Positions 1-60,840 of a stretch of 64,000 bases of DNA are shown piece by piece. A program made the position numbers and the translations under genes. Source of the DNA: an uncultured Anaerobiospirillum sp. (lineage in GTDB: Bacteria > Pseudomonadota > Gammaproteobacteria > Enterobacterales > Succinivibrionaceae); contig CALXOW010000100.1 in assembly GCA_944390115.1 (NCBI GenBank), positions 1-64,000 on the forward strand, in the 5' to 3' direction. Each line of letters begins with the position of its first letter. Within the stretch, counting starts at the first letter, position 1. The notes beneath the pieces are model-generated. The model saw nothing but the letters and a program-made list of their open reading frames with translations. It made no database searches and had not been told where the DNA came from.

Positions 1-481
1 ACTCAATATCGTTTGGGGCACATGACTGGTAAACGTTATTGGGAATAAGGGCGGCAAGCTGCTCTGAGTGCGCAAGGAGCTTTGAGGTAGTACGAGTATT
101 AGCCAGTGCCGAACCGGTCTCAATCAGCGCAACATCGCAAGGAGAAATGATGCTTTGCTTAATAAATTGGTTATGAATGCGTACAGGCGTCTGCTCGTAC
201 GGCGCAGGTGTGGCTAATTCAGGACTGGTTGCGATGGTACCAAGACCCTTAATACCATTGATGTGAATGAAGTAAGGGATCGCATCATTGGCGGGGGCCG
301 ACTCTACGATATCGTTTACCGCTCTGGCATTGTGTACCGGAGTCGCGTCAGATGGTTCTTTTGCGGTCGGGCCAGTTTGAGTTTGGGCGGAAGCATCCCC
401 TTCAGGCACGCTTAAGCTGTCCTTGTCCATAGGGGACAGGACACTATCTACGTCACTTGAAGTTCTTGATGCCTGGGCCAA
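1..481 (-). CDS. N-terminal part of a giant mobile-element protein, paralogue of the 2256-aa RuvC-like protein (cut by window edge)
   Basis: About 160 codons read open from a TTG at 479-481 to the window edge. A strong AAGGAGG at 491-497 lies 9 nt upstream. The start is supported by the complete copy at 53706, which has the same AAGGAG-N8-TTG layout. The encoded N-terminus is rich in Ser, Asp and Thr, then reads HNARAVNDI, PYF, SPEL, APY, VRIHN, LIP and PNDIE in the same order and spacing as HNARALNDI, PYF, NPNL, APY, IRLPN, LLP and DPEVVE in the large protein. Identity over about 110 aligned residues is roughly one third by eye, so this is a diverged paralogue and not a recent duplicate. Function is inferred only from that relationship, because the nuclease part lies outside the window. 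The nearby ATG at 488 reads in another frame that stops after about a dozen codons. Confidence 0.8.
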   Translation of the reverse strand, partial: MAQASRTSSDVDSVLSPMDKDSLSVPEGDASAQTQTGPTAKEPSDATPVHNARAVNDIVESAPANDAIPYFIHINGIKGLGTIATSPELATPAPYEQTPVRIHNQFIKQSIISPCDVALIETGSALANTRTTSKLLAHSEQLAALIPNNVYQSCAPNDIE

Positions 482-720
482 AATCGCATTCCTCCTTGAA
501 CTAAGAATAATGTGCACTGTGTCAATGCTTAGACATAGTTATCTCTGTTAAAGCAATTTTTATGCCATCAAATTCATTTTAAAAGATGAGATTTGTGTTA
601 AATTACTTTTGACAAAAGAAAGATAAATTATTGATTTTATATTTACCTTTTGACAACTTTATTTTATATAAAAATAACCAATATGAGAGATACTAAATTT
701 TATGAATTTACAATAAATAC

Positions 721-754
721 AAAAAACAGCCGTACGCCGACAGCTTGGCTGTTT
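721..754 (-). terminator. Rho-independent-terminator-like hairpin inside the leader of the truncated giant gene
   Basis: On the minus strand AAACAGCC, a 15-nt loop, GGCTGTTT and a T run (six Ts in all) form an 8-bp stem followed by U residues. It lies about 170 nt inside the element and about 240 nt before the TTG start. It would stop transcription entering from outside, or end a short leader transcript. No equivalent is seen in the leader of the complete copy. Confidence 0.55.
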
Positions 755-905
755 GTTTTAATTAGAAATTTTGATAAATAAAACTTTAGCCACCGCTATC
801 AATAAAATTCGATTTACATGATTATATGGCGAAGCAGCCAAATCGCTTGTCGACTAAATTGATTCAAGCCGTGCAGCAGAAGAGATGCCAAATTTGGTGC
901 AAGAT

Positions 906-923
906 TTAATTTGTAACAGCTCC
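906..923 (-). repeat. Terminal inverted repeat of the truncated element
   Basis: The plus strand reads TTAATTTGTAACAGCTCC. Its complement matches the left repeat at 53195-53212 exactly and the right repeat at 60817-60834 with one mismatch. It marks the outer boundary of the truncated element. Confidence 0.85.
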
Positions 924-1095
924 CAGCAAGTGCTTGTTTTTAGGGCCCGATCTTTCTATTCTAACCTCACACCAAAGCCCGCAGAAGCAAGGTTCTATGC
1001 GGCTTTCGGCCGTGCTGGGTGCGGCTTGTGCCCAGTGCGTGGCCCAAGGCTGAGCGCATTGGGTGGCTGATAGAGAGGAAAGAAAAGGAGTAAGT

Positions 1096-4975: not shown

Positions 4976-6994
4976 CTATGAGGTGAGCAGGGCGGCGAGG
5001 TCCTCGATCGCGCGGTTGAGGCCGTGCTCATTGGCCGCAGGCTCGCGCGCGGCGCCAGCCTCCACGATTTCGAGGTCGGCCTCGGGCATTTCGGCGATAA
5101 AGCGGCTGGGCTCTTGGGCGTTGAGATTGGCGCCGACCTTGCGCGCGCGGGCTACCACCATGGTCAGCTCGGTTTGGGCGCGGGTCACGCCGACGTAGGC
5201 TAAACGGCGCTCCTCTTCGATATTGTTCTCATCAATGGAGGTGCGGTGGGGCAGGATGCCCTCTTCCATGCCCAGTAAGAAGACAAATGGGAACTCCAGG
5301 CCCTTGGCCGCGTGCAAGGTCATAAGCTGGACTGCATTGCCTTCCTCGTCATCGTCGCGCTGCTCCATCATCTCGCGTAAGCCCAAGCGCTCGACCGCCT
5401 CGCCAAAGTGCAGCGGCTCGCCCTTGGTCCCGGCGATGAGTTCGCTAATCCAGCTCATCACGGTCTCGACGTTCTTGAGCTTCCACTCATATGCTTGCTC
5501 TGAGCTTTCGGCGCGCAGGTACTCGCGAAAACCCAAGCGCTCGAGCAAGGTAGAGCACAGCTCTTGGTCTTGGCCGCGCAGCAGCATTTGGCGCAAGTCG
5601 ACATAGAGACCTAAAAAGCCCATCACCGCGCCTGATTGCTGCACATTGAGCTGAGCGTAGAACTCCTTGGAGCAAATGCAATCGTAGAGGCAACGCTGGT
5701 ATTGATGGGCGGTGCTGGTCATAGCCTTGAGGGTCTGGGCGCCAATGCCACGTGCGGGCACATTGATCACGCGCAAAAAGGCGGCATCGTCCTTAGGATT
5801 GGTTAAAAAGCGGCACCAGGCCAGGATGTCCTTGACCTCCATGCGCGAGAAAAAGGAGGTGTCGCCGGTGACCTTGCATGGGATGTGGGCCGCCATCAGT
5901 TCCTTTTCCATATCGCGCGCTTGAGAGTTGGAGCGATACAAGATGGCATAGTGGCCCCACGAGGTCTTGTGATCAAAGCGATGGCCCATAATCTCCGAGG
6001 CCACGTACTCGCAGGCGGACTCATTGGTATCGCAGTAGGCCACTCGAATCTTGGCGCCTTCTTGCAGCGCTGAGTACAAGGTTTTCTCAAAGATATGCGG
6101 ATTGTGCGCAATGATGGAATTGGCACAGCGCAGAATGCGCGCGGTCGAGCGGTAGTTTTGCTCGAGCTTGATCACCTTTAAATCCGGAAAGTCCTGTGTC
6201 AGTTGCTTGATATTCTCGGGGCGGGCGCCGCGCCACGAGTAGATCGATTGATCGTCATCGCCCACTACGGTAAAGCGCTGGTTGCTCGCGACTAGGCACA
6301 TGAGCAAGATGTACTGGGTTTGGTTGGTGTCTTGGTACTCATCGACCAAGATATAGCGAAAACGCGCTTGGTATTGGGTGCGCGTGGCCTCGTCGAGTAA
6401 TAGCAAGCGCGTCGGGATAAAGAGCAGGTCGTCAAAGTCGACCGCATTGCAGGCGCGCAGGTAGTTGGTGTACTTCTGATAAATATCGATGATGAGGGGA
6501 TCGCCGCCTTCCTTTTGCACGACCTTAGGGGTCTTTAAGGCACCCTTGTACAGCGAAATGCGATTGCACAGATCTTCGATGTACTCACGGGAGGCGTCTT
6601 GCGCCAGGCCTGGGAAGTCGGTGGTCAGGATGTTCTTGATACTCTTGAAGGTATCAGTCTCATCAAAGATAGAGAAGTTGCGCCCCAGGCCCAAGCGTGC
6701 GGCCTGCTCCTTTAAGATGATGCGTCCTAAGGCGTGAAAGGTGCAGATCGTAAGTTCAGAGGCGGTCTTTTCATCGACCTCACGCGCGATACGCTCGCGC
6801 ATTTCAGCGGCGGCCTTATTGGTAAAGGTGACGGCCAAGATCTCACGGGCCTGCGCTAAGTTGTTGCGCAGCAAGTGGACAATCTTGGTGATGATGACAC
6901 GGGTCTTGCCTGAGCCCGCGCCGGCCAGCACCAGGCAAGGGCCTGAGGTGTACTGTACCGCCTCAAGCTGGGCGGCATTAAGTTGCATCGCCAT
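4976..6994 (-). CDS. rep: ATP-dependent DNA helicase Rep (UvrD family)
   Basis: The 672-aa protein has the length of E. coli Rep (673). It is a 3'-5' SF1A helicase that helps replication forks pass bound proteins and restart. Motifs in order: Q motif LNAAQLEAVQY, Walker A GAGSGKT near residue 30, VTFTNKAAAEM, Walker B VDEYQDTN, GDDDQSIYSWRGARP, LEQNYRS, and late VQLMTLHAAKGLEFPFVF and VGVTRAQ. The TSGPCLVLAGAGSGKT and STAHQ-type segments are closer to Rep than UvrD. The ATG at 6994 follows AGGAGGTGATTTT; an in-frame start 9 codons upstream is less well placed. The next gene upstream is divergent. Confidence 0.95.
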   Translation of the reverse strand: MAMQLNAAQLEAVQYTSGPCLVLAGAGSGKTRVIITKIVHLLRNNLAQAREILAVTFTNKAAAEMRERIAREVDEKTASELTICTFHALGRIILKEQAARLGLGRNFSIFDETDTFKSIKNILTTDFPGLAQDASREYIEDLCNRISLYKGALKTPKVVQKEGGDPLIIDIYQKYTNYLRACNAVDFDDLLFIPTRLLLLDEATRTQYQARFRYILVDEYQDTNQTQYILLMCLVASNQRFTVVGDDDQSIYSWRGARPENIKQLTQDFPDLKVIKLEQNYRSTARILRCANSIIAHNPHIFEKTLYSALQEGAKIRVAYCDTNESACEYVASEIMGHRFDHKTSWGHYAILYRSNSQARDMEKELMAAHIPCKVTGDTSFFSRMEVKDILAWCRFLTNPKDDAAFLRVINVPARGIGAQTLKAMTSTAHQYQRCLYDCICSKEFYAQLNVQQSGAVMGFLGLYVDLRQMLLRGQDQELCSTLLERLGFREYLRAESSEQAYEWKLKNVETVMSWISELIAGTKGEPLHFGEAVERLGLREMMEQRDDDEEGNAVQLMTLHAAKGLEFPFVFLLGMEEGILPHRTSIDENNIEEERRLAYVGVTRAQTELTMVVARARKVGANLNAQEPSRFIAEMPEADLEIVEAGAAREPAANEHGLNRAIEDLAALLTS

Positions 6995-7071
6995 AAAATC
7001 ACCTCCTAACAACAACCTCATCGGCGCGCATTGTACAATGATCGTCCTGATTTTTTAGGGGGAGTGGCAGG

Positions 7072-8631
7072 ATGCTATCACGGGCGCGGGTATTACAGTT
7101 ACGGACTGATTATCAGGCCGGGTTGAGCTTAAATGATTTGCAGCGCAAGTACGGGCACAGTGTCCTGACTATTCGCCGCTGGGTCTGTGACGAGCGGCCG
7201 TTACCTAAGCAAACCACAAAAAAGTCAGGCCCACGGGCGACGCTCACGCCTGAGGCTAAAGAGCCGGCAAGCTTATTGGTGCAAAGCCTCCCGCCAGGGC
7301 CAGCTCAGCCCTTACTTACGTCAGCGGCGCGCTATATCGACCAAAAATATGGCTGGAAGGTGCTCAAGCGGGCGCGTCCTAAGCTGAGCGCCGAGCTAGC
7401 AAAAGAGCTGAAAGTAGCTCCGGCCTTAGCGCAGCCCCTGGTCGCGCTGCTGGTGGACGGCTTAGCGCGGGTCAAGACCCCCGAGGAGCCTGCGGCATGG
7501 GGCACGCTGTACCTTGATCTGCGCCCGGTGACACTCAAGACCCCTAGCGGTACGCTCGAGCAATGTTTGCTGACCTTGAGCCTGCCGCAAGTACCGCTGA
7601 CCCTAGGCTATGTCCTGCCCGGCCCGAGTTTTGAGGGACTGGTCGAAGCACTACAGGTACTGAGCGCACGTTTACGGGGCTTGCCGCAGCATTTAGCGCT
7701 GTCCGCCGTTGCGCTTGAGCCTCTGATTACGCGGCCACTGCGTGATTATGAAACGGTCTTAGGCCGGGGTAATTCTCTGGTGACCTACGATCACCAAGGG
7801 CAAGTCTGTGCCTTTACCACCGACTTTATGAACTTCAAGCTGGCCTTAGGATCTTTAGTCTCACTGGGGGCGCCGGGCCCAACCGGCGCTGATTGGTGTG
7901 CGCTTAATGTGATGGCCTCAGATTTGGTCTATCGCGGTGATAGCGACGCTTTCAATGATGAGCTGCACGCGCTGTTGCTCAGCGCCCAAGGCCTGACCCT
8001 TGCTGACTGGGATGAGCTGTTGGGTTTAGTACGCGGCAACCAAGAGGCGCTGTCCGCATGGTTTAAAGCACACGCCGCGCTGCCGCGTAATTTAGCGCGG
8101 GCGCTGCAAGCCCTGGCGCCGCTCAATGCGCGGGTTACGGACTTTCCCCGTGCAACCGTGCATCAAGCTGAGGTCAACCAGTTCGGGCGCATTAGTTTTG
8201 AGGGCAATGAGTACTCGGTGCCTAATATGAGACCGGGGGCGGCAGTCGTAGTCGTGGTCGATAAGCTCAAGCTTAGAGTGCGCACTGCGCGCAACAAGGA
8301 GCTCATTTGTTTTGACCGCTGCTATGGTCAGGGCCACTACTTGCTCATTTGGTCAGTGGAACTGGAGCGCCTGATAGCGCAGCCTGCGGCCTTTGCCCGT
8401 TCGCGCGTGGCCTTGGAGTTTGACTCAGAGGACGTAAGCTTAGTGGTGAGCTGCGGCTTTGCGGCGGTTACAGCTGTGCTTACGGCGCTCAAAGCACGCC
8501 TTGAGGACAACGATATCGCGCGCCTAGCCCGGCTCTTCCACCACTGCGTGCACCAAGCGCAAGAGCAGGCCGACGAGGACGATTTCAGCACCGTCCTCGT
8601 GGACCTAATCGCTCAGGAGCCTGCTAAGTAA
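7072..8631 (+). CDS. IS21 IstA-like protein, probably domesticated (catalytic triad not conserved)
   Basis: The 519-aa protein starts with a helix-turn-helix (LRTDYQAGLSLNDLQRKYGH then TIRRWV, residues 10-40). It ends with the beta-barrel-like segment typical of IstA/Mu-type transposases (VNQFGRISFEGNEYSVP, near residue 365). The middle, where the retroviral-integrase fold lies, keeps a first Asp in LYLDLRPV but shows no recognisable second Asp (DN-type) or Glu motif. No IstB ATPase gene follows, and no inverted repeats are seen around it. Base composition is like the host genes. The simplest reading is an old, exapted IstA that may still bind DNA but no longer transposes. The start has GGGGGAG 9 nt upstream. 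It converges on the primase-like gene across a hairpin. Confidence 0.7.
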   Translation: MLSRARVLQLRTDYQAGLSLNDLQRKYGHSVLTIRRWVCDERPLPKQTTKKSGPRATLTPEAKEPASLLVQSLPPGPAQPLLTSAARYIDQKYGWKVLKRARPKLSAELAKELKVAPALAQPLVALLVDGLARVKTPEEPAAWGTLYLDLRPVTLKTPSGTLEQCLLTLSLPQVPLTLGYVLPGPSFEGLVEALQVLSARLRGLPQHLALSAVALEPLITRPLRDYETVLGRGNSLVTYDHQGQVCAFTTDFMNFKLALGSLVSLGAPGPTGADWCALNVMASDLVYRGDSDAFNDELHALLLSAQGLTLADWDELLGLVRGNQEALSAWFKAHAALPRNLARALQALAPLNARVTDFPRATVHQAEVNQFGRISFEGNEYSVPNMRPGAAVVVVVDKLKLRVRTARNKELICFDRCYGQGHYLLIWSVELERLIAQPAAFARSRVALEFDSEDVSLVVSCGFAAVTAVLTALKARLEDNDIARLARLFHHCVHQAQEQADEDDFSTVLVDLIAQEPAK

Positions 8632-53038: not shown

Positions 53039-53188
53039 GAAAGCCTCTTTTTTAGAGATCTCAGTACAATTGCTGCAAGCGCAGCGCTTTGACTTAATAT
53101 AGCATAAAGCGTGGGGCACGTAAGACGCGCTCAGGGGTAAGAGCCGTGATGACATCAGGCCGCGCGGCGTTGTTGATTTTAATTTTCA

Positions 53189-53194
53189 CTGAGG
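53189..53194. repeat. Candidate target-site duplication, left copy (CTGAGG)
   Basis: CTGAGG at 53189-53194 directly precedes the left inverted repeat, and the same six bases at 60835-60840 directly follow the right one. The exact split between duplication and repeat is ambiguous by one or two G/C bases, so the duplication is 4-6 bp. Confidence 0.65.
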
Positions 53195-53212
53195 GGAGCT
53201 GTTACAAATTAA
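53195..53212 (+). repeat. Left terminal inverted repeat
   Basis: GGAGCTGTTACAAATTAA, identical to the end of the truncated copy (906-923, other strand) and 17/18 to the inverted right end at 60817-60834. Confidence 0.85.
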
Positions 53213-53216
53213 ATTT

Positions 53217-53231
53217 GCACCAAATTGGTGC
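53217..53231. promoter_or_regulatory. Subterminal palindrome conserved at both left ends
   Basis: GCACCAAATTGGTGC is a 7-bp-arm palindrome with one central base, four bases inside the left inverted repeat. The truncated copy has GCACCAAATTTGG at the same place. It could be a binding site for the element protein or a regulator. Confidence 0.5.
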
Positions 53232-53465
53232 TTTGTCTAATATCCGAACAGGACCATCGATTATCCGTTAAGTCAACTGACAATTTGCAAAGCTTAGTGA
53301 CTAGATTATTGGATAATATTTAACTGCAAATTATTAAATTTATATTTCTTAAGTTTTGCTCAATGATTATCATTACCTTTTTGTTTTGTGTTGAATATTG
53401 CGATATTGATATGTTTAGCAAAATACCTAACTTAAATTGCAAAAAGCGTCGTAATTTATAAAATC

Positions 53466-53491
53466 AAATACAGGTACTATACCATGTATTT
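53466..53491. repeat. 26-bp palindrome in the leader of the giant gene
   Basis: AAATACA-GGTA, centre CTA, TACC-A-TGTATTT: 11-bp arms with one bulged A, about 215 bp before the start codon. It is not found in the leader of the other copy. Confidence 0.6.
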
Positions 53492-53705
53492 GTGTTAATC
53501 GAGTTGGATTCTGTAATATCAGCACTGAGTCTATAAATAAATTTAAGTTAAATATTATTTGTTAACTGCAAATAAAAATAACAAAAAAATGGCCTGATTT
53601 ATGCAATAGGAGATGTTGTTGTCAATTCTTTGTTGCCAACAGTTTTAGGGGCTAACACCTCGGCCGTGCCAACACCCCATATTCCCAAATAAAGGAGTGA
53701 TGCTT

Positions 53706-56700
53706 TTGACTCAGATGGCTTCCACTTCAACCCGCGCAGATGACGCTTTGTCCGCTTCGGACAAAGACGAAATCTGCTCGGCTCAAAGTGACACCAACTC
53801 TGAGCAAAACAAGTCAGCTCCGACACACAATGCCAGAGCCCTAAACGATATTAGAGCCTGTGCCCCTAAAGCGACCGCCAAGCCATACTTCTACTTATCC
53901 AATCACTCGGATGGCTGCCTTGAAATCAACCCTAATCTTGAGCTATTGACCGCAGCTCCCTACCTTAACAAGGCGATTCGTTTGCCTAATGCTGGCAATG
54001 AGTTTGGAATTTTCTCGTTGCCTAGGGTAGGAATGGTGCAAACTGCCACCGTCCTTGCGCAAAGCCGCGCTTGCTCGCAACGCCTTGATGCATCCTCCTT
54101 GCTCCAGCCACTCTTGCCTCATATTCATTACTGCCCAATTGACCCTGAGGTGGTCGAAGAAACGCTCTATGTCGGTGTGTGCTTTACCCTGATTACCAAG
54201 AGCGCTTTACAAATGGCTAAGCGTGATGGCCATAAACTGATTGAGCGGCTAGGCGTGGGGCGTTATCACTATAAGTTCATCACCCCATATCAGGTCAAGG
54301 ATTGCCTGCCGACTGACGAAGTCTATTTCGTGCCCATTACTATGCTGGATGAAGTTAATGCCACCTTAGAGGAGGTGCAAAAGCATCACCCAACGTGGTT
54401 AAAGCAACTTCCAGCGGAAATTGAGTCGCAGCTTTATCAGTTTCACCTCGAGCGTTTGCGTAAGCTTGCGCACAAGCAGCAAGAGAAGCAGGAGCGTAAG
54501 AGCAAGAAGGACAAGCCCAAGCAGCCTCAGACCCGCAAAAAATACACTCCCAGAAACGGTGCGTTTGTCCGCTTAGCCCCACACATTGTCACCGCCCAAG
54601 AGCAAGGGCTTGGTTTAGCCTCGAGTGGCACCATCATCTTGAAACCGCTTGAGTTCTATCAGGGCCAGCCGCAAGGTGAAAGCTTTCAGGCCGATACCCA
54701 AAAGGCAAAACCTGAGCTAATCCCTACCGGCGCTGATGACAGCCACACAGATGAGGAATCTCGCAAGCGTAGCATTACCGCCCTGCGTGAGCAGATTGTC
54801 AGAAAACTGCTGGCTAAGGGCCGCATTATTAGACTGGATAAGAAGCAACGCCAGCGTGTCGCTTTGCGCCAAGAGGCTATCTTAAACCATGGCTATCACT
54901 GCGATACCAATCGGCTCCAAATCTACTTGGAGGCCCACTTTAAGGGAGCTTTGACGCATTTTGACAAAGGTATTAACGCCCAACTTACGCCTCTGTGCAT
55001 CCCTCATGCGTCCCTGGTGCGTGACCCTCTGCCCTGTTTTAATGCTGAGACCTATGTAGCTCATGGCCTCTTGCTCGCTGCTGACTGTGCCGACTTAATG
55101 TACGGCTGGTATGAGCTCGCAAAGACAGCACAGGCCAAAAGTACCGCTAAGAAATCAGCTCAGGCGCAAGATGAGAGTGAGACTGAATCTAAGCTCTTTG
55201 CCCCGTGTCAGCGCCTGCAGCAGCATGCCATGCTGCTCTTAGAACAGCTGGGCAATTTTTATCTAGAAGCTGGCTTAGCCAATGAAATTGTTACTTCGAT
55301 TGCGGCAGCCCAAAAACTGAGCACCGATTGGCACAAGGCCTTAAACCAAGAGCACAAAAAGGCTCAAGAAGATAAGAACAAGTCTGCATCCACCAAGACT
55401 GAGGACGCTAGCGCTAAGGATGATGGTGTAAGCTCAACAGCTGAGACAAGCGCAGCTGAAGCCTCTACCACTAAGACTGACGCCACAAGCTCCGCAGCTA
55501 ATATAAGCGAAGCTGAGGACGCTAAAGCTGATACTACAAGCTCGGAAGCTGAGATAAACGAGAATGCGCCGAACGCTCCAACTCCAGCAAAGCCTGCTCA
55601 GTCTGAAAAGCTTAGGGCGCAACTGTTAGCAAAATTACAACAGGTTAAGACTGCGGCGCAATTACAGCCCTTGGTGTACCCAGAGCTTACTGAGTTGGTC
55701 GAGCTGAGTGCGGACTTAACACATAACTTGGGGCAAACCCCAAGTATGGCGCAAGTGCAAGATTGGACTGAGCGCAGTTTAAAGCTGGCGCAAAGCTTGT
55801 GCCGTTCACCCTTAATCCTGCTCAATGCTGCTCCTGATGAGCGCCTGCATGATGCTCAAGCTGCTACTGAGTGGCTCTTACAGCTAGTTGAATTTGGGCA
55901 ATGTTTGCGTGCCCCATTGCACCTAGCAAGCTATGCTTTACTGCTTAAGCAGTGCTGCCGAGAGGAGGCAGCTTTAGTCGCTGCACCTTACTACGAGTCG
56001 CATTGGCAACGCCAACCTGCTTGGTTCGAGTACTTATGCAAACTCTTAAGTAAGAGTGAGGTCTTACTCCAAAAGCTGGCGTTAGGCCAAGACTCTGATG
56101 CTGACACCGTTGGGCCTACGTTGCATGCAGTCAAGGCATGTGCGCAGGAGGTAAACACTCTGTGCCGCAAAGCCTGCAATAGTGTCCGCAGCCAAGTCTG
56201 CCGCAGTCAAAATGCGGTGCGGCATATTCTCAGTGCTACCCCAGAGCGTTTGCAGCCGCAACTGCACGTTTTAGCGCAGCTTAATAAACTCCAAGCACTC
56301 TCTGAGCAAATTTTCGCTGATTTACAGCAAGGCAAGCCTCAGCTTGAGCTGGTAGTGCCCCTGTGCCATGAGCTATATGGCTTACAGCAGTTCATGCTGC
56401 GCCAGCTCACCGTGCAAGATGAGCCTTGTGCTGTCCTAACAGAGTTAGACCAAGCTTGCTATATCAGCAAGTTAGTAGCGCATGAACTTGACTTCAGTAG
56501 CACAGAAGCGCACACGCAAGCGCTGCTGAGTGGACTGAGCTCAACTTTAGAGCCTGCTAGCATCACTATGGCGCGCTTGCAGGAGCTATCTGAGAGTAAT
56601 CTGAGCTCTGAGCTGACCAAAGCTTTCCAAGTAACTGGCACCAGTTTTACCGCAGTACAACAAGCGCTGAGTGTGGCCCAGTCTGAGCTTAACACTGATA

Positions 56701-59700
56701 ACTTAGCCGCCCTCAAAGAAGCTATCGCTAAGCTTGCCCTGCACCATCGTGAGCTTAGCGCTCTGATAGCACCAAGCTATAACCCACGTGCTAACAAATA
56801 TTGGCGCACGGACTACGAGACTCCAGACAGACGTGATGATGACACCAAGGTGCAAGCCCAGTGGCTGTTAGCACCGGTGCGTTCTGCTAGGGCGCTACTT
56901 ACTGCCTTGAACTTGGCGGTTACACCCAAGAGCAACGTCATGCCAGAAGATAAGGCCACGCAGCTTAAGTTGGCGGCACCGCTTATCCTAGCTGAGGTCA
57001 ATAAGCTCTGGGTAGTGAGCACCTACTTAGAGCCCAATAAGCTGGGCGCATTGACGGCACCGTTACAGCAAGCCAAGGAGGTGCTAACTAAGTTAAGCGC
57101 CCCGGCTCAGAGCGAGACAGAATCTCATCCAGAACTGATTGAGGTGTTACGTACCAGCCTGAAGCAGGCGGCCACTAAGGTCAAGAGCTTGAGCTATCAG
57201 GTGCCTAATAAGAGCACCTTTAAGCCACAAGCGGCGGTGGTACGCCGCCTATCCACCTTGGACAAGTTGGCACAGCTGATAGCAGACAATCCCGCTTTTG
57301 AAGTGAAATTTGCGCTGGCGCACAAGCTTATCCCGGCAGTCATGAGCTTACAGCATGACCTCCGAGCCTTGCCTGGGAAGCAAGTTTCTGAACTTAAGAC
57401 GTTACTGGTACAAGTTCAAGCTCATCTTGACCATATCAGCAAGGGTGAAGTGCCAGCTGAGGGTAAGGTTGTAACCTTGCTGCAGCAAGGCGCTGCTCCC
57501 GCCTGTTTGCTGCTCAAGGAACAAAGTCACAAGCAAAGTGCGGCTCATGTTGCAGCCCTGCATCAGCGCTTTACTCTGATGCGGTCGCGTCTTAATGCCC
57601 GTACGGGTTATGAGGCCATCAAACTTAACCCTGAGCTCATAGAGCTTTATCACAGCCAGATTAATCTGTGCACCTTTGATATTTGGGCGCCCAAACTGCA
57701 AGCGCTGGCCAATACGGCCGAACTGTCAGCTGCGTTCTTGGGCTTAGATGACAAGGCACAAGCCACATATCAACTTCACCTCTATTGGAGTGCGTTATTT
57801 TATCGCCAAGCGCATACCCTAAAGGCTTTCTTTGAAACCTCTCATGAGTACTTTGATAAAAAGTACAAAAAGTATCAAGCTGCGCTTAAACAGCTGCAAC
57901 AGCAAGTTGCTGATGAGTGTAATCAAACTCAGCTAAATAAAAACCAGGCCACCTCAGCAAGCAAGAAAAAACTTGTTTCCAATAAGGATGAACTCGAAAC
58001 AAATCTTGCCGAAGTTAAGCATAATCTTGCCTTAATTCAGCCATTATTTGATCAAGTTAAATTCTTTGAATCTATTGCTCATAGACGTTTTCAAAGATTT
58101 TACTCCCACCTTGTTCAGCTTAAAGTTGATTTAATTAATTTCGTTGGCGACCGTCAAGGTTCTGAACTTACCGATATTCTTAGCTTTAAGACTCCACTAA
58201 TATCATCTAGCGAATGTCAAGTAGTATTAAGTCAAGTCCAAGATAAAGCTCTAAAGCAATTGACTGGACTTATATCCAATCAAAATAAAGCACGGGGCAA
58301 ACAACGCTCAGCCCTTAATACTGCCCGTGATAATATTAAACTTGTTGCTGGTTGGACTGGGCTTGCCGGGTGGAATACGGCCAAAATCGCTGAGATGAGA
58401 ACCAAATATCTGCTTAAGCAGGGTTTATTGGTGATGGTGGAGGAGAAGGTACCCCCTTTAACTTCTGATAAATCTGATAAATCAGCATCTCTAACCTCTA
58501 ACCAAACGGGCGACGTCAAGGACCGCAACGATTCAGACCACAGTAACTTAAAGTCTGAACCAAATGTGGCCCAAGACCAAGAAGAGCATAGCAACGAAGC
58601 CAAGCCCCAGCCTAGCCACTCCGAAACAGAGAATGATGAAGCGACTGATACTACTGTAGTACGTCAACTCACCGTAGGCGCACCTGCTTGTGACCGCCTT
58701 TGGTCCTGCGCCTATAATCGCGAATACCGCAATACTAAGAACTTTCGCTCTTTCATGAGTCATGCTGGTGATAAAGGCACCCGCATCGTGCAGTCGACTT
58801 TCATGCGTAAGGGTAAGAAGAAGCTTACTGCTAAGCTTGAGGCCAAAGCCTTTTGTGCCGATGGCTGGGTCCATCCGGTCGCACTGCCCCTTGATGTTAG
58901 GGGTAATAAGCGTGGTCACCTGTGGGATTTAATCGCCAAGCGTGATGGGAAGGTTAGGGTTCAGCATATTTGCATTGTCTATAACAATGTGCGCACGAAG
59001 GATGGGCGCCTCATCAAGCGTCTTACCGTCAACAGTTGTATCCCTGGACTGCCACCTTTTGCCTCACAGCGAGTATTTAAGGCCATGAAATATCGTGGCA
59101 TTGATATCAATGATAAAGCCGCAATGGAGAAGTGGCGCGAATGTGTGGTTGCAGTTGACCCTAGCACTCAGTCAATTACTGTTTTATCGAGCTCTAATGA
59201 TGGCTCAAAATTCAATCTTGCCATTAAGGATTTTCTTGATCGCGAAAACAAGAAGAATGCTGCCAAGCTGCAGCAGCTTGAGCTTAAACTGAAGCAAGAC
59301 AAGCGTGCCTATAGTGAGCACATAGCTAAAATTAATCCCAAGTTATACGATAAAAATAACAAAAGATTAAGCAATGCTGAAGTGCGTGCTAAATTTGGCG
59401 ATTGCCAAGAATGGTATGACAAAAAAGCACTGAGCCTAAATTATCGTGTGCTTCAAGATAATCAAGATATCTACCAATTTCGTAAGGAATGCCAGTTTAA
59501 GGTTATTTGTGACATTATAGCCTTAGGTGGTACTGTTATTATTGAAGATATGAGTTATAACGGCCTTAAAAAGAGAGGCCGTAAGACTCCATCCCAGAAA
59601 GAAGGAGATGATTACAAGGCATTTCTGCCTGATGAGCTCAATAAACTTGACCCAGAGCCTGATTCCCTTCAGCCTCAAATTCAGACTTCCGCAGGCAACT

Positions 59701-60476
59701 GTGGTAGTAGCACCAATAGAACGAATAATCGTGCAAAGAAGGCAGCAAGGGGTAAGGCAGCAGCAAGTGATAAGCGAGCACAGCAGGCAGGAACGGCCTC
59801 ACCAGGCAAACCTCAGCCTCTCAATCAAGAGGCTCAGGTGAACCCAACCGGTCAGAGCAGACCAAGCCATAAGCTAAATCCTGCTAAAAGCTGGTCCCGC
59901 TACGGTGCTTCTATTGGCCGCGCTGCGCCTGCAACCTTTATCAAAAGGTATAGCGCTATTTTGGCTAAATTAGGTGGAGTTTTAATCAAAGTTCCACCCC
60001 AGCTGCTTAAGGCAACCCAGCGCAATCCGCTGCTCTTTATCGACCATCCTAAAGCCTTCCAAAAGCTCAAGGGTGGCATAAATCAGCGGTATAAGCCCGT
60101 GCTTGTACCAAGTGAAATTAGCGGGAGCGAACGTGATGAAGAGGTATGGATTCAACGTGACTTTATGGCAGCATTTACTTTAATGCATGCCATTTGTAAC
60201 AAGAGTCGTATCTCAGGCCCTGGCAAGACTTGCGTACTCAATGACGTTGATGTTGCAGCCTGTCGCGCCGATTGGCCTAACTTCCTGCGGGCATATTACT
60301 ATGCTATGAAGCATCTATGGAATAAGGGGCTATGCTCTGATTGTGTTAAAGAAAATTTACGGCCAAGTAAGTATGACCTCCAATCCAACGATTGGTACTG
60401 GGGGATGAAAGCTTGGTCTAAAACAAATAAGGTAAAGCAAGAACTTTGTTCAATAAAAGCAAGTCAACCTCAGTGA
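53706..60476 (+). CDS. Giant mobile-element protein with C-terminal TnpB/Cas12-like RuvC nuclease domain
   Basis: The protein has 2256 aa from TTG 53706, 8 nt after AAGGAG and at the same place as the TTG of the second copy; GTG 53697 and ATG 53700 are too close to that site. The N-terminus (Ser/Asp-rich, then HNARALNDI) is followed by a basic tract (~255-283), long helical regions, an acidic low-complexity linker (~555-635) and another (~1586-1650). From ~1660 a beta-rich part (VQHICIVYNNV, LIKRLTVNSCIPGLPP) resembles the wedge before RuvC in TnpB. Then come VVAVDPSTQSITVLSS (D1818), a long helix, GGTVIIEDMSYNGL (E1947), a basic insert (~1972-2058), GGVLIKVPPQLLKATQ, and IQRDFMAAFTLMHA (D2152), equal to the RuvC I-II-III series of TnpB. 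The TnpB zinc ribbon before motif III is absent; a CSDC pair lies near the C-terminus. Nuclease activity is probable; guide use and targets are unknown. Confidence 0.8.
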   Translation: MTQMASTSTRADDALSASDKDEICSAQSDTNSEQNKSAPTHNARALNDIRACAPKATAKPYFYLSNHSDGCLEINPNLELLTAAPYLNKAIRLPNAGNEFGIFSLPRVGMVQTATVLAQSRACSQRLDASSLLQPLLPHIHYCPIDPEVVEETLYVGVCFTLITKSALQMAKRDGHKLIERLGVGRYHYKFITPYQVKDCLPTDEVYFVPITMLDEVNATLEEVQKHHPTWLKQLPAEIESQLYQFHLERLRKLAHKQQEKQERKSKKDKPKQPQTRKKYTPRNGAFVRLAPHIVTAQEQGLGLASSGTIILKPLEFYQGQPQGESFQADTQKAKPELIPTGADDSHTDEESRKRSITALREQIVRKLLAKGRIIRLDKKQRQRVALRQEAILNHGYHCDTNRLQIYLEAHFKGALTHFDKGINAQLTPLCIPHASLVRDPLPCFNAETYVAHGLLLAADCADLMYGWYELAKTAQAKSTAKKSAQAQDESETESKLFAPCQRLQQHAMLLLEQLGNFYLEAGLANEIVTSIAAAQKLSTDWHKALNQEHKKAQEDKNKSASTKTEDASAKDDGVSSTAETSAAEASTTKTDATSSAANISEAEDAKADTTSSEAEINENAPNAPTPAKPAQSEKLRAQLLAKLQQVKTAAQLQPLVYPELTELVELSADLTHNLGQTPSMAQVQDWTERSLKLAQSLCRSPLILLNAAPDERLHDAQAATEWLLQLVEFGQCLRAPLHLASYALLLKQCCREEAALVAAPYYESHWQRQPAWFEYLCKLLSKSEVLLQKLALGQDSDADTVGPTLHAVKACAQEVNTLCRKACNSVRSQVCRSQNAVRHILSATPERLQPQLHVLAQLNKLQALSEQIFADLQQGKPQLELVVPLCHELYGLQQFMLRQLTVQDEPCAVLTELDQACYISKLVAHELDFSSTEAHTQALLSGLSSTLEPASITMARLQELSESNLSSELTKAFQVTGTSFTAVQQALSVAQSELNTDNLAALKEAIAKLALHHRELSALIAPSYNPRANKYWRTDYETPDRRDDDTKVQAQWLLAPVRSARALLTALNLAVTPKSNVMPEDKATQLKLAAPLILAEVNKLWVVSTYLEPNKLGALTAPLQQAKEVLTKLSAPAQSETESHPELIEVLRTSLKQAATKVKSLSYQVPNKSTFKPQAAVVRRLSTLDKLAQLIADNPAFEVKFALAHKLIPAVMSLQHDLRALPGKQVSELKTLLVQVQAHLDHISKGEVPAEGKVVTLLQQGAAPACLLLKEQSHKQSAAHVAALHQRFTLMRSRLNARTGYEAIKLNPELIELYHSQINLCTFDIWAPKLQALANTAELSAAFLGLDDKAQATYQLHLYWSALFYRQAHTLKAFFETSHEYFDKKYKKYQAALKQLQQQVADECNQTQLNKNQATSASKKKLVSNKDELETNLAEVKHNLALIQPLFDQVKFFESIAHRRFQRFYSHLVQLKVDLINFVGDRQGSELTDILSFKTPLISSSECQVVLSQVQDKALKQLTGLISNQNKARGKQRSALNTARDNIKLVAGWTGLAGWNTAKIAEMRTKYLLKQGLLVMVEEKVPPLTSDKSDKSASLTSNQTGDVKDRNDSDHSNLKSEPNVAQDQEEHSNEAKPQPSHSETENDEATDTTVVRQLTVGAPACDRLWSCAYNREYRNTKNFRSFMSHAGDKGTRIVQSTFMRKGKKKLTAKLEAKAFCADGWVHPVALPLDVRGNKRGHLWDLIAKRDGKVRVQHICIVYNNVRTKDGRLIKRLTVNSCIPGLPPFASQRVFKAMKYRGIDINDKAAMEKWRECVVAVDPSTQSITVLSSSNDGSKFNLAIKDFLDRENKKNAAKLQQLELKLKQDKRAYSEHIAKINPKLYDKNNKRLSNAEVRAKFGDCQEWYDKKALSLNYRVLQDNQDIYQFRKECQFKVICDIIALGGTVIIEDMSYNGLKKRGRKTPSQKEGDDYKAFLPDELNKLDPEPDSLQPQIQTSAGNCGSSTNRTNNRAKKAARGKAAASDKRAQQAGTASPGKPQPLNQEAQVNPTGQSRPSHKLNPAKSWSRYGASIGRAAPATFIKRYSAILAKLGGVLIKVPPQLLKATQRNPLLFIDHPKAFQKLKGGINQRYKPVLVPSEISGSERDEEVWIQRDFMAAFTLMHAICNKSRISGPGKTCVLNDVDVAACRADWPNFLRAYYYAMKHLWNKGLCSDCVKENLRPSKYDLQSNDWYWGMKAWSKTNKVKQELCSIKASQPQ

Positions 60477-60511
60477 TATCCCTTATACCCTTATATAAGA
60501 ATAAGGATATG
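60475..60511 (+). terminator. Hairpin just after the giant gene stop codon
   Basis: ATATCC-C-TTAT and ATAAGGATAT pair around a loop that itself contains CTTATATAAG. It begins at the stop codon. No T run follows, so it may be a processing or stability structure and not a terminator. Confidence 0.4.
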
Positions 60512-60568
60512 AGGTGTGTTTGTGTGGCAACATATATCTTAATGCAAGATATGCAATAATCGGCGCTT

Positions 60569-60801
60569 GATTGTTGGTTGTAACATAAACAATCATTGAA
60601 ATTGCTTTTGATTTGACTTGTCTCTTGCTGGGGGATATGGGCTGTAGCCGTGCATTTTATCAAGAAATGTACGGTCCTCCATAAGTAAGCTGCTTTAACA
60701 AGTAACACTGCTTAAAAGATGATATTACATCTTATAATGTAATCCAATTAATGGTGCATAGCGTAGATGAGGGGACTCTCTGGGGTCGCCAAGTCTGCAC
60801 C
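60569..60801 (+). ncRNA. Candidate structured RNA at the element right end (omega-RNA-like position)
   Basis: Four stems occur in a row: GATTGTT/AACAATC (60569-60594), CCGTGCATTT/AAATGTACGG (60648-60674, ten pairs including one G-U), ATTACAT/ATGTAAT (60724-60743) and GGTGCA/TGCACC (60753-60801). The segment lies between the stop codon of a TnpB-like nuclease gene and the element end, where TnpB elements encode their guide RNA. Transcription and function are unproven; stems of six or seven pairs in AT-rich DNA can arise by chance. Confidence 0.35.
60709..60738 (+). promoter_or_regulatory. Outward promoter candidate near the element right end
   Basis: TGCTTA (60709-60714), 18 bp, TATAAT (60733-60738). 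The -10 is perfect and the -35 weak. It reads out of the element into yggS, or makes an RNA crossing the right end into flanking DNA. Confidence 0.45.
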
Positions 60802-60816
60802 GTTAAGAGGCATTAA

Positions 60817-60834
60817 TTAATTTGTAACAGCCCC
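60817..60834 (-). repeat. Right terminal inverted repeat
   Basis: TTAATTTGTAACAGCCCC on the plus strand; inverted it matches the left repeat with one mismatch (position 3, G for A). Confidence 0.85.
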
Positions 60835-60840
60835 CTGAGG
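60835..60840. repeat. Candidate target-site duplication, right copy (CTGAGG)
   Basis: Same six bases as 53189-53194, directly after the right inverted repeat. The GAGG forms part of the purine-rich stretch before yggS. Confidence 0.65.

Follow-up and report, generated by a model that had tools for sequence, protein, structure and literature searches.

A giant TnpB-like protein gene inside a mobile terminal-inverted-repeat element of Anaerobiospirillum with a probable IS5-like DDE mover

We analyzed a stretch of 64,000 nt from an uncultured Anaerobiospirillum assembly (the window, in whose numbering all coordinates are given). It contains an element bounded by terminal inverted repeats (TIRs), within which lies a single large gene for a giant TnpB-like protein. 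The Anaerobiospirillum assembly is called the own genome below, and relatives of it are labelled G002, G006 and G007. The features of the element, followed by a second copy at the start of the window, are:

53194-60835: the whole element, 7642 bp, with a single large gene inside
53194..53212, plus strand: left TIR GGGAGCTGTTACAAATTAA, 19 nt, matching the end pattern
60817..60835, minus strand: right TIR GGGGGCTGTTACAAATTAA, 19 nt, matching the end pattern
53190..53193, no strand: left copy TGAG of the target-site duplication, 4 bp, delimited by the 4-bp rule from miniature inverted-repeat transposable elements (MITEs) and by an empty site
60836..60839, no strand: right copy TGAG of the duplication, where the putative guide would start
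53188..53189, plus strand: AC dinucleotide resembling a target-adjacent motif, directly 5' of the duplication and common to 20/28 left ends of types A-C
53217..53231, no strand: subterminal palindrome GCACCAAATTGGTGC, with variants in other left ends, a putative transposase site
53213..53696, no strand: left non-coding region, in which tblastn found no trace of the transposase
53697..60476, plus strand: giant TnpB-like protein gene, an open reading frame (ORF) with dN/dS determined between family copies
59067..60176, plus strand: part coding for the predicted TnpB-type RuvC region, residues ~1791-2160, including D1821, E1950 and D2155
60748..60815, plus strand: right-end hairpin structure with a conserved AGCGTRG bulge, a candidate guide-RNA scaffold
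1..924, minus strand: left part of a second, diverged family copy with which the window opens, its repeat at 906-924, with an N-terminal ORF fragment

An earlier sequence-only reading of the window had placed the element at 53195..60834, with 18-bp repeats and a CTGAGG duplication. The single mismatch between the two repeats holds, but the true span is 53194-60835 and each repeat has 19 nt. CTGAGG was ruled out as the duplication by the MITEs of G002 and by an empty site in G006. The 122-bp MITEs for which both flanks are present show a 4-bp duplication in 6/6 cases; a seventh MITE, which runs to the end of its contig, and a degenerate copy are not in this count. At the G006 empty site, an alignment of 559 positions (91%) with the two window flanks joined shows no insert, and the target is present once, as CGAG. 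The duplication at the window element is thus TGAG. The giant gene had been seen as the only gene of the element, and this stands, since the window copy has just two further ORFs of at least 100 aa, both antisense (107 and 123 aa). Comparison of two family copies gives the giant gene a dN/dS of 0.34; for a close pair of copies the value is 0.49.

The same reading had suggested looking for empty sites and other copies of the repeats in related genomes; besides the empty site, further copies were found both in the own genome and in relatives. With up to two mismatches allowed, the pattern GGCTGTTACAAATTAA hits 22 sites in the own genome, whereas its reversed form, used as a control, hits 1. With three mismatches allowed, a longer end pattern matches 30 sites in G000, 42 in G002 and 54 in G006 (controls 0-1), while the remaining genomes of the bacterial family are mostly near control level (57 genomes scanned). 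Collection was limited to ends that have 30 nt or more of flanking sequence and differ by no more than one substitution from a listed repeat form; it gave 102 distinct ends, which begin with GGGA (93), GGGG (6) or other bases (3). Many ends of the element family lie close to the edges of contigs, where repeats in draft assemblies are expected to fall. G006 has part of a copy in another place, its left 1327 nt, with 97.9% DNA identity to the window copy; this different locus encodes residues 1-269 of the window protein with 100% identity. Relatives of the giant protein within the own genome show 34-51% identity. Thus the element is mobile, as seen from its repeats, the number of ends, the empty site, the 4-bp duplications and the partial copy at another locus of G006.

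A C-terminal profile of the giant family matches 3/57 genomes of the bacterial family at the protein level, and a scan of genome contigs yielded three loci, all from Candidatus Anaerobiospirillum pullistercoris. G006, through its N-terminal piece, is a fourth genome with at least part of the giant protein, and all four (G000, G002, G006 and G007) belong to one genus. No relative was found in viral contigs using the C-terminal alignment and the exact repeat, nor in a plasmid search.

Some shorter or divergent copies were also observed. On one G006 contig (C1, L104 797-1168), a derivative of 372 bp retains both family ends but has no matching 4-bp duplication; by eye, it includes a hairpin of ~48 nt. 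The gene at whose 3' end it is found is the one that has the window element on its 5' side. Left ends of type D (TTTTGCAACATTTTGG) are frequent in G000 and G006 (L118 2453-3758, L105 ~6570-7605, L328). Neither a giant gene nor a right end was found in two longer type D copies, and one type D copy has a weak IS66 transposase match (E 0.013). At L023 (G000 contig C30), an inverted-repeat insertion of ~220 bp with TCACAT flanks lies, by eye, apparently inside a type D left end.

We next consider the giant protein. It had been read as ~2256 aa with a catalytic series D1818/E1947/D2152; there is indeed one giant gene with D-E-D residues, but the protein measures 2259 aa from its GTG start (2258 from an overlapping ATG), and the residues counted from GTG are D1821, E1950 and D2155, the earlier numbering being three too low. 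A profile of 52 TnpBs from a subgroup without a zinc ribbon finds the whole giant protein at E 8.7e-10, whilst the shuffled and reversed protein were unlisted at E 100. This subgroup comprises 62 loci in the viral-contig scan (L219-L280). The profile consists of 46 of these viral (IMG/VR) loci, hand-picked, and 6 plasmid proteins, being the 6/19 plasmid hits that were opened; the other 16 viral loci were omitted as apparent near-duplicates or fragments. Comparison of the giant C-terminus with the subgroup by hhalign gave P 3.2e-15 with the bridging relative excluded. The D/E/D residues are co-aligned with those of TnpB, the third D forming an invariant column and the first D and the E nearly invariant columns (41 sequences). 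Relatives in the giant family that cover these residues keep D/E/D, the G002 fragments covering the third only. Taken together, the alignments bear out the earlier assignment and indicate that the C-terminus of the giant protein is a TnpB-type RuvC region.

By the same comparisons, the nearest kin of the giant protein is the TnpB subgroup without zinc ribbon, with sizes of 379-550 aa and a median of 493 (n=52; some short ones may be incomplete). The giant protein, at 2259 aa, is outside the 400-550 aa range of TnpB. The earlier view of a very large branch of the RuvC lineage is thus retained for the TnpB-type RuvC, but the protein is closest to this subgroup and is not an isolated branch. The tnpA of IS200/IS605 adjoins 2/6 of the opened plasmid members. 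The link to TnpB was obtained via the G007 relative and the plasmid TnpBs, and hhalign of the giant protein against seven ordinary Succinivibrionaceae TnpBs failed to make it. The G007 relative has a weak match to PF01385 (E 0.023) and one to NF040570 (E 8.9e-5) that is under the cut-off, and its protein gave 6 weak matches in 395 genomes of the order. PHROGs and PADLOC searches of the giant protein, and a search of Protein Data Bank sequences with the C-terminal profile, returned nothing useful. The first ~1790 residues match nothing in these searches, consistent with the earlier remark that the N-terminal ~1800 residues have no recognizable family.

A candidate for the mover of the element was found in G002. 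On contig C42, an ORF for the N-terminal part of a giant-family protein (identity of 35-36% across ~78 residues, E 5.4e-8 and 8.3e-12) is divergent from a gene with DUF772 (L113) and DDE_Tnp_1 (L113, L115) parts as identified by Pfam. The far end of this gene is located at a family repeat, and no repeat with up to five substitutions was found between the two divergent gene starts. The best NCBIfam model is IS5 (NF033581), with E 6.8e-24 and 84.7 bits, below the cut-off of 140. Transposase sequence lies beside 5/5 G002 ends of the transposase-side left type, and giant C-terminal sequence beside three of the four G002 right-type ends. Transposase sequence is present in G000, G002, G006 and G007, that is, in 4/11 genomes of the genus, and these four also carry the giant protein, complete or fragmentary. 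A repeat with three mismatches to the end of the G007 giant comes after the transposase fragment of G007. The left region of the window element has no tblastn match to the 355-aa G002 transposase fragment. Judged by these sequence relationships, the element is probably moved by an IS5-like DDE transposase. The C42 transposase gene is itself interrupted by other inserted DNA containing a MITE; this insert (L113 2317-4188) has ORFs of 372 and 229 aa without a Pfam match, and the 122-bp MITE lies between them.

The sequence-only reading had allowed for either self-mobilization or movement in trans by a transposase. Movement in trans fits better, and self-mobilization by a RuvC transposase is disfavored because a DDE transposase exists that shares the ends and the genome distribution of the giant gene. 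In its full form, that alternative casts the giant protein as the transposase, with a RuvC domain that cuts at the repeats and produces the 4-bp duplications, and assigns the DDE gene to an unrelated element with similar ends. The giant gene stands alone in the window copy, and there are more left ends of types A-C than transposase-side ends (9 vs 3 in G000, 19 vs 3 in G006), both of which would suit it. However, MITEs and DDE-carrying ends have the same repeats, the MITEs have the same 4-bp duplications, the DDE and giant genes adjoin in G002 with no repeat detected between them, and the two genes occur in the same 4/11 genomes. Moreover, DNA joining is not known for TnpB-type nucleases. We therefore regard a giant-protein transposase as very unlikely.

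Inspection of the insertion sites revealed a one-sided motif. The dinucleotide AC, at positions -6 and -5 just before the 4-bp duplication, was counted at the collected ends, leaving out 2/102 of no class; the MITE ends are paired and the 372-bp derivative was counted at both ends, so the rows are not fully independent. The left ends carry AC in 3/5 cases for type A, 10/16 for type B and 7/7 for type C (total 20/28), compared to 2/33 right ends (Fisher P 8.5e-8) and to 4/28 ends made up of D-type left ends (2/12) and MITE ends (2/16; Fisher P 3.1e-5 for the sum). Types A and B alone give 13/21 at left ends vs 2/33 at right ends (P 1.3e-5). By genome, AC is found in G006 at 12/19 left vs 1/21 right ends (P 1.1e-4), with 0/7 at D-type ends (P 0.006); in G000 at 8/9 left vs 0/8 right ends, with 2/5 at D-type ends; and in G002 at 4/5 transposase-side vs 2/16 MITE ends (P 0.011). 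The A at -6 is present at 24/28 left ends of types A-C, 9/28 D and MITE ends and 10/33 right ends. A weaker target preference, roughly Y-WNNW-R, occurs at left, right and D/MITE ends alike, which suggests that it is the transposase's own target taste. A symmetric DDE complex should not favor AC at one side only, and guidance of a TnpB from the right end would require a target motif precisely at the AC position.

This asymmetry could arise during insertion. A right-end RNA together with the giant protein would then pick the target and the DDE transposase would insert beside AC, in the manner of a CRISPR-associated transposon (CAST) with an IS5-like transposase. AC at a fixed, one-sided place, and its rarity at MITE and D-type ends, would agree with such RNA-guided insertion. 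Yet the sites look mutually unrelated, the most similar pair of 30-nt left flanks being identical at just 17/30 positions, which a fixed guide fails to explain; and retention after insertion would produce the same asymmetry. RNA-guided insertion thus appears improbable to us. We also give little credence to its extended form, in which an RNA-guided 2259-aa TnpB descendant, independently evolved, would direct or license DDE insertion via right-end RNA and AC, with the ~1790-residue N-terminus serving as a nuclease-transposase adaptor.

The right end was then examined for a possible guide-RNA (omegaRNA) scaffold. In end types A, B and C and in G002, the last ~90 nt share a fold made up of an outer stem, the AGCGTRG bulge, which is conserved, and an inner hairpin whose sequence differs between end types. 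Folding z-scores are -3.6 for type A and -3.8 for type C. The outer stem is 95.8% paired vs 22-57% when slid (8 aligned sequences), and the covariation score of the structure was reached by 13/500 shuffles. The arms of the outer stem resemble subterminal GGTGC words that are found at left ends too, so part of the conservation could reflect a protein-binding site. The fold is a candidate guide-RNA scaffold, nothing more. Separately, the 48 available 3' flanks of subgroup TnpBs (six plasmid) contain AGAACC in 34 and GAAAGTCT in 16.

The anatomy, the mobility, the homology to TnpB, the co-occurrence with the transposase, the asymmetric motif and the conserved right-end fold are observed. With modest confidence, we lean towards explaining them by an enlarged TnpB that was captured in an IS5-like DDE transposon and acts in RNA-guided retention. 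In this scenario, a zinc-ribbon-less TnpB would have been captured in Anaerobiospirillum and grown ~4.6-fold, chiefly by N-terminal expansion. The DDE transposase would cut and paste the transposon, giving the 4-bp duplications; some copies would bear it divergent to the giant gene, and window-like copies without it would be moved in trans. The giant protein would probably be an RNA-guided RuvC nuclease, with a guide RNA derived from the right end, a guide consisting of the duplication and the right flank, and a need for an AC-type motif just 5' of the target. Cutting of empty sites would then favor repair that restores the element. Such RNA-guided retention is plausible. Cutting of element-free plasmid copies by TnpB of IS200/IS605 is reported in PMC11870625. 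What we infer here beyond the observations is the order of capture, that the giant protein binds RNA and cuts, and that retention is its function.

Several results weigh against this explanation. At the protein level, the alignments show no cysteines of a C4 zinc ribbon (OrfB_Zn_ribbon) in the giant protein, nor did Pfam match one, although the six nearest plasmid TnpBs likewise are without it; the window protein and the fragments have no Pfam or NCBIfam match of note (PF01385 and NF040570 unmatched); and a seven-sequence profile of ordinary TnpBs finds the giant C-terminal part only at E 37. A reading of the giant N-terminus as a TnpB N-terminus found no support, the N-terminal 1640 aa failing to align (hhalign prob 0.1). 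The transposase genes of G000, G006 and G007 are known as fragments only. The AC motif was picked after viewing data (G000 and part of G006): the idea came from the own genome and then from the available G006 and G002 flanks. The remaining G006 ends were collected afterwards. The ends strictly later than the idea form a small held-out set with the same direction as the full set (left 6/10 vs right 1/9, P 0.057; D-type 0/4). AC is present at only 2/6 transposase-side ends in G000 and G006, and left-end type C is without a proven giant gene. At the right end, folding z-scores are low for type B (-2.0 and -1.8), G002 (-1.8) and G007 (-0.07), only one pair has changed on both sides, and an Rfam scan found no match. 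A right-end motif shared with the subgroup TnpBs was dismissed, as AGCGTRG is found in only 2/48 of their 3' flanks.

These points bear on a further alternative, that the giant protein is carried as a passenger and serves some different purpose, such as regulation or defense against other mobile DNA, and that the AC bias is due to asymmetry of the transposase complex or partly to the post-hoc choice of the motif. The large N-terminal region without a recognized family would fit this, as would the Y-WNNW-R preference at all kinds of ends, if it is the transposase's target taste, and the held-out AC subset at just P 0.057. It accounts poorly for the A at -6, with its excess at the left ends of types A-C over both D and MITE ends and right ends. 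We consider a passenger unlikely, while granting it some weight, and keep to the retention of a captured TnpB.

The element sits just upstream of a gene that is also carried by G006 and which we take to be yggS-like. Elsewhere in the window, at 1054-2855, two adjacent similar ORFs of ~305 aa have, by eye, the look of a tandem duplication.

The nearest known system is the zinc-ribbon-less TnpB of IS200/IS605, represented by the six plasmid proteins (e.g. from Finegoldia, Pontibacillus and Pseudomonas FeN3W). The giant protein has in common with these the RuvC D/E/D, an RFGKSxxNxAP motif, a QRD third motif and a 3' non-coding region. Unlike them (379-550 aa), it has 2259 aa, several times the size of these nearest relatives, and lies between TIRs with 4-bp duplications. 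IS200/IS605 elements have no TIR and no target duplication. In contrast to IS200/IS605 or IS607, with their Y1 or serine TnpA, the window element has both and the family transposase is of the DDE type. The IS5 family is similar in its TIRs and 4-bp duplication and in the DUF772 and DDE_Tnp_1 transposase found in relatives of the window element; it differs in that our transposase scores under the curated cut-off, copies bear a giant TnpB-like gene, and the window copy is without a transposase. Type V-K CAST combines Cas12k with Tn7-like proteins (TnsB, TnsC and TniQ) and a CRISPR array. It likewise pairs a Cas12/TnpB-type protein with a DDE transposase, but the window copy has a single gene and insertion sites are variable.

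Known Fanzors, which are TnpB homologs of eukaryotes or of their viruses, are below ~1000 aa in size. Fanzor1, a TnpB homolog, was captured by eukaryotic DDE transposons with TIRs and target-site duplications, and bacterial TnpB is reported with TnpA of IS200/IS605 and IS607 elements, according to PMC3627910 and PMC10711439. Our literature search, which was not by protein size and mostly without subscription papers, did not reveal any DDE element with TIRs in bacteria that carries a gene resembling TnpB. The window element resembles Fanzor1 in having a TnpB homolog inside a DDE TIR transposon, and differs in its bacterial host, its nearest kin in the zinc-less TnpB subgroup and its protein of ~2259 aa. 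If true, bacterial capture of TnpB by a DDE transposon would be a separate instance of the capture known for Fanzor1. Copies with the giant gene and MITEs that lack it share their repeats, offering a natural test of the use of a TnpB-type nuclease to its transposon, and the contrast between AC at giant-gene-type ends, where it is common, and at MITEs, where it is rare, would open the retention model to testing in an element that moves by cut and paste. Should the proposed mode of action hold, the pairing of nuclease and transposon known from eukaryotes would exist in bacteria as well.

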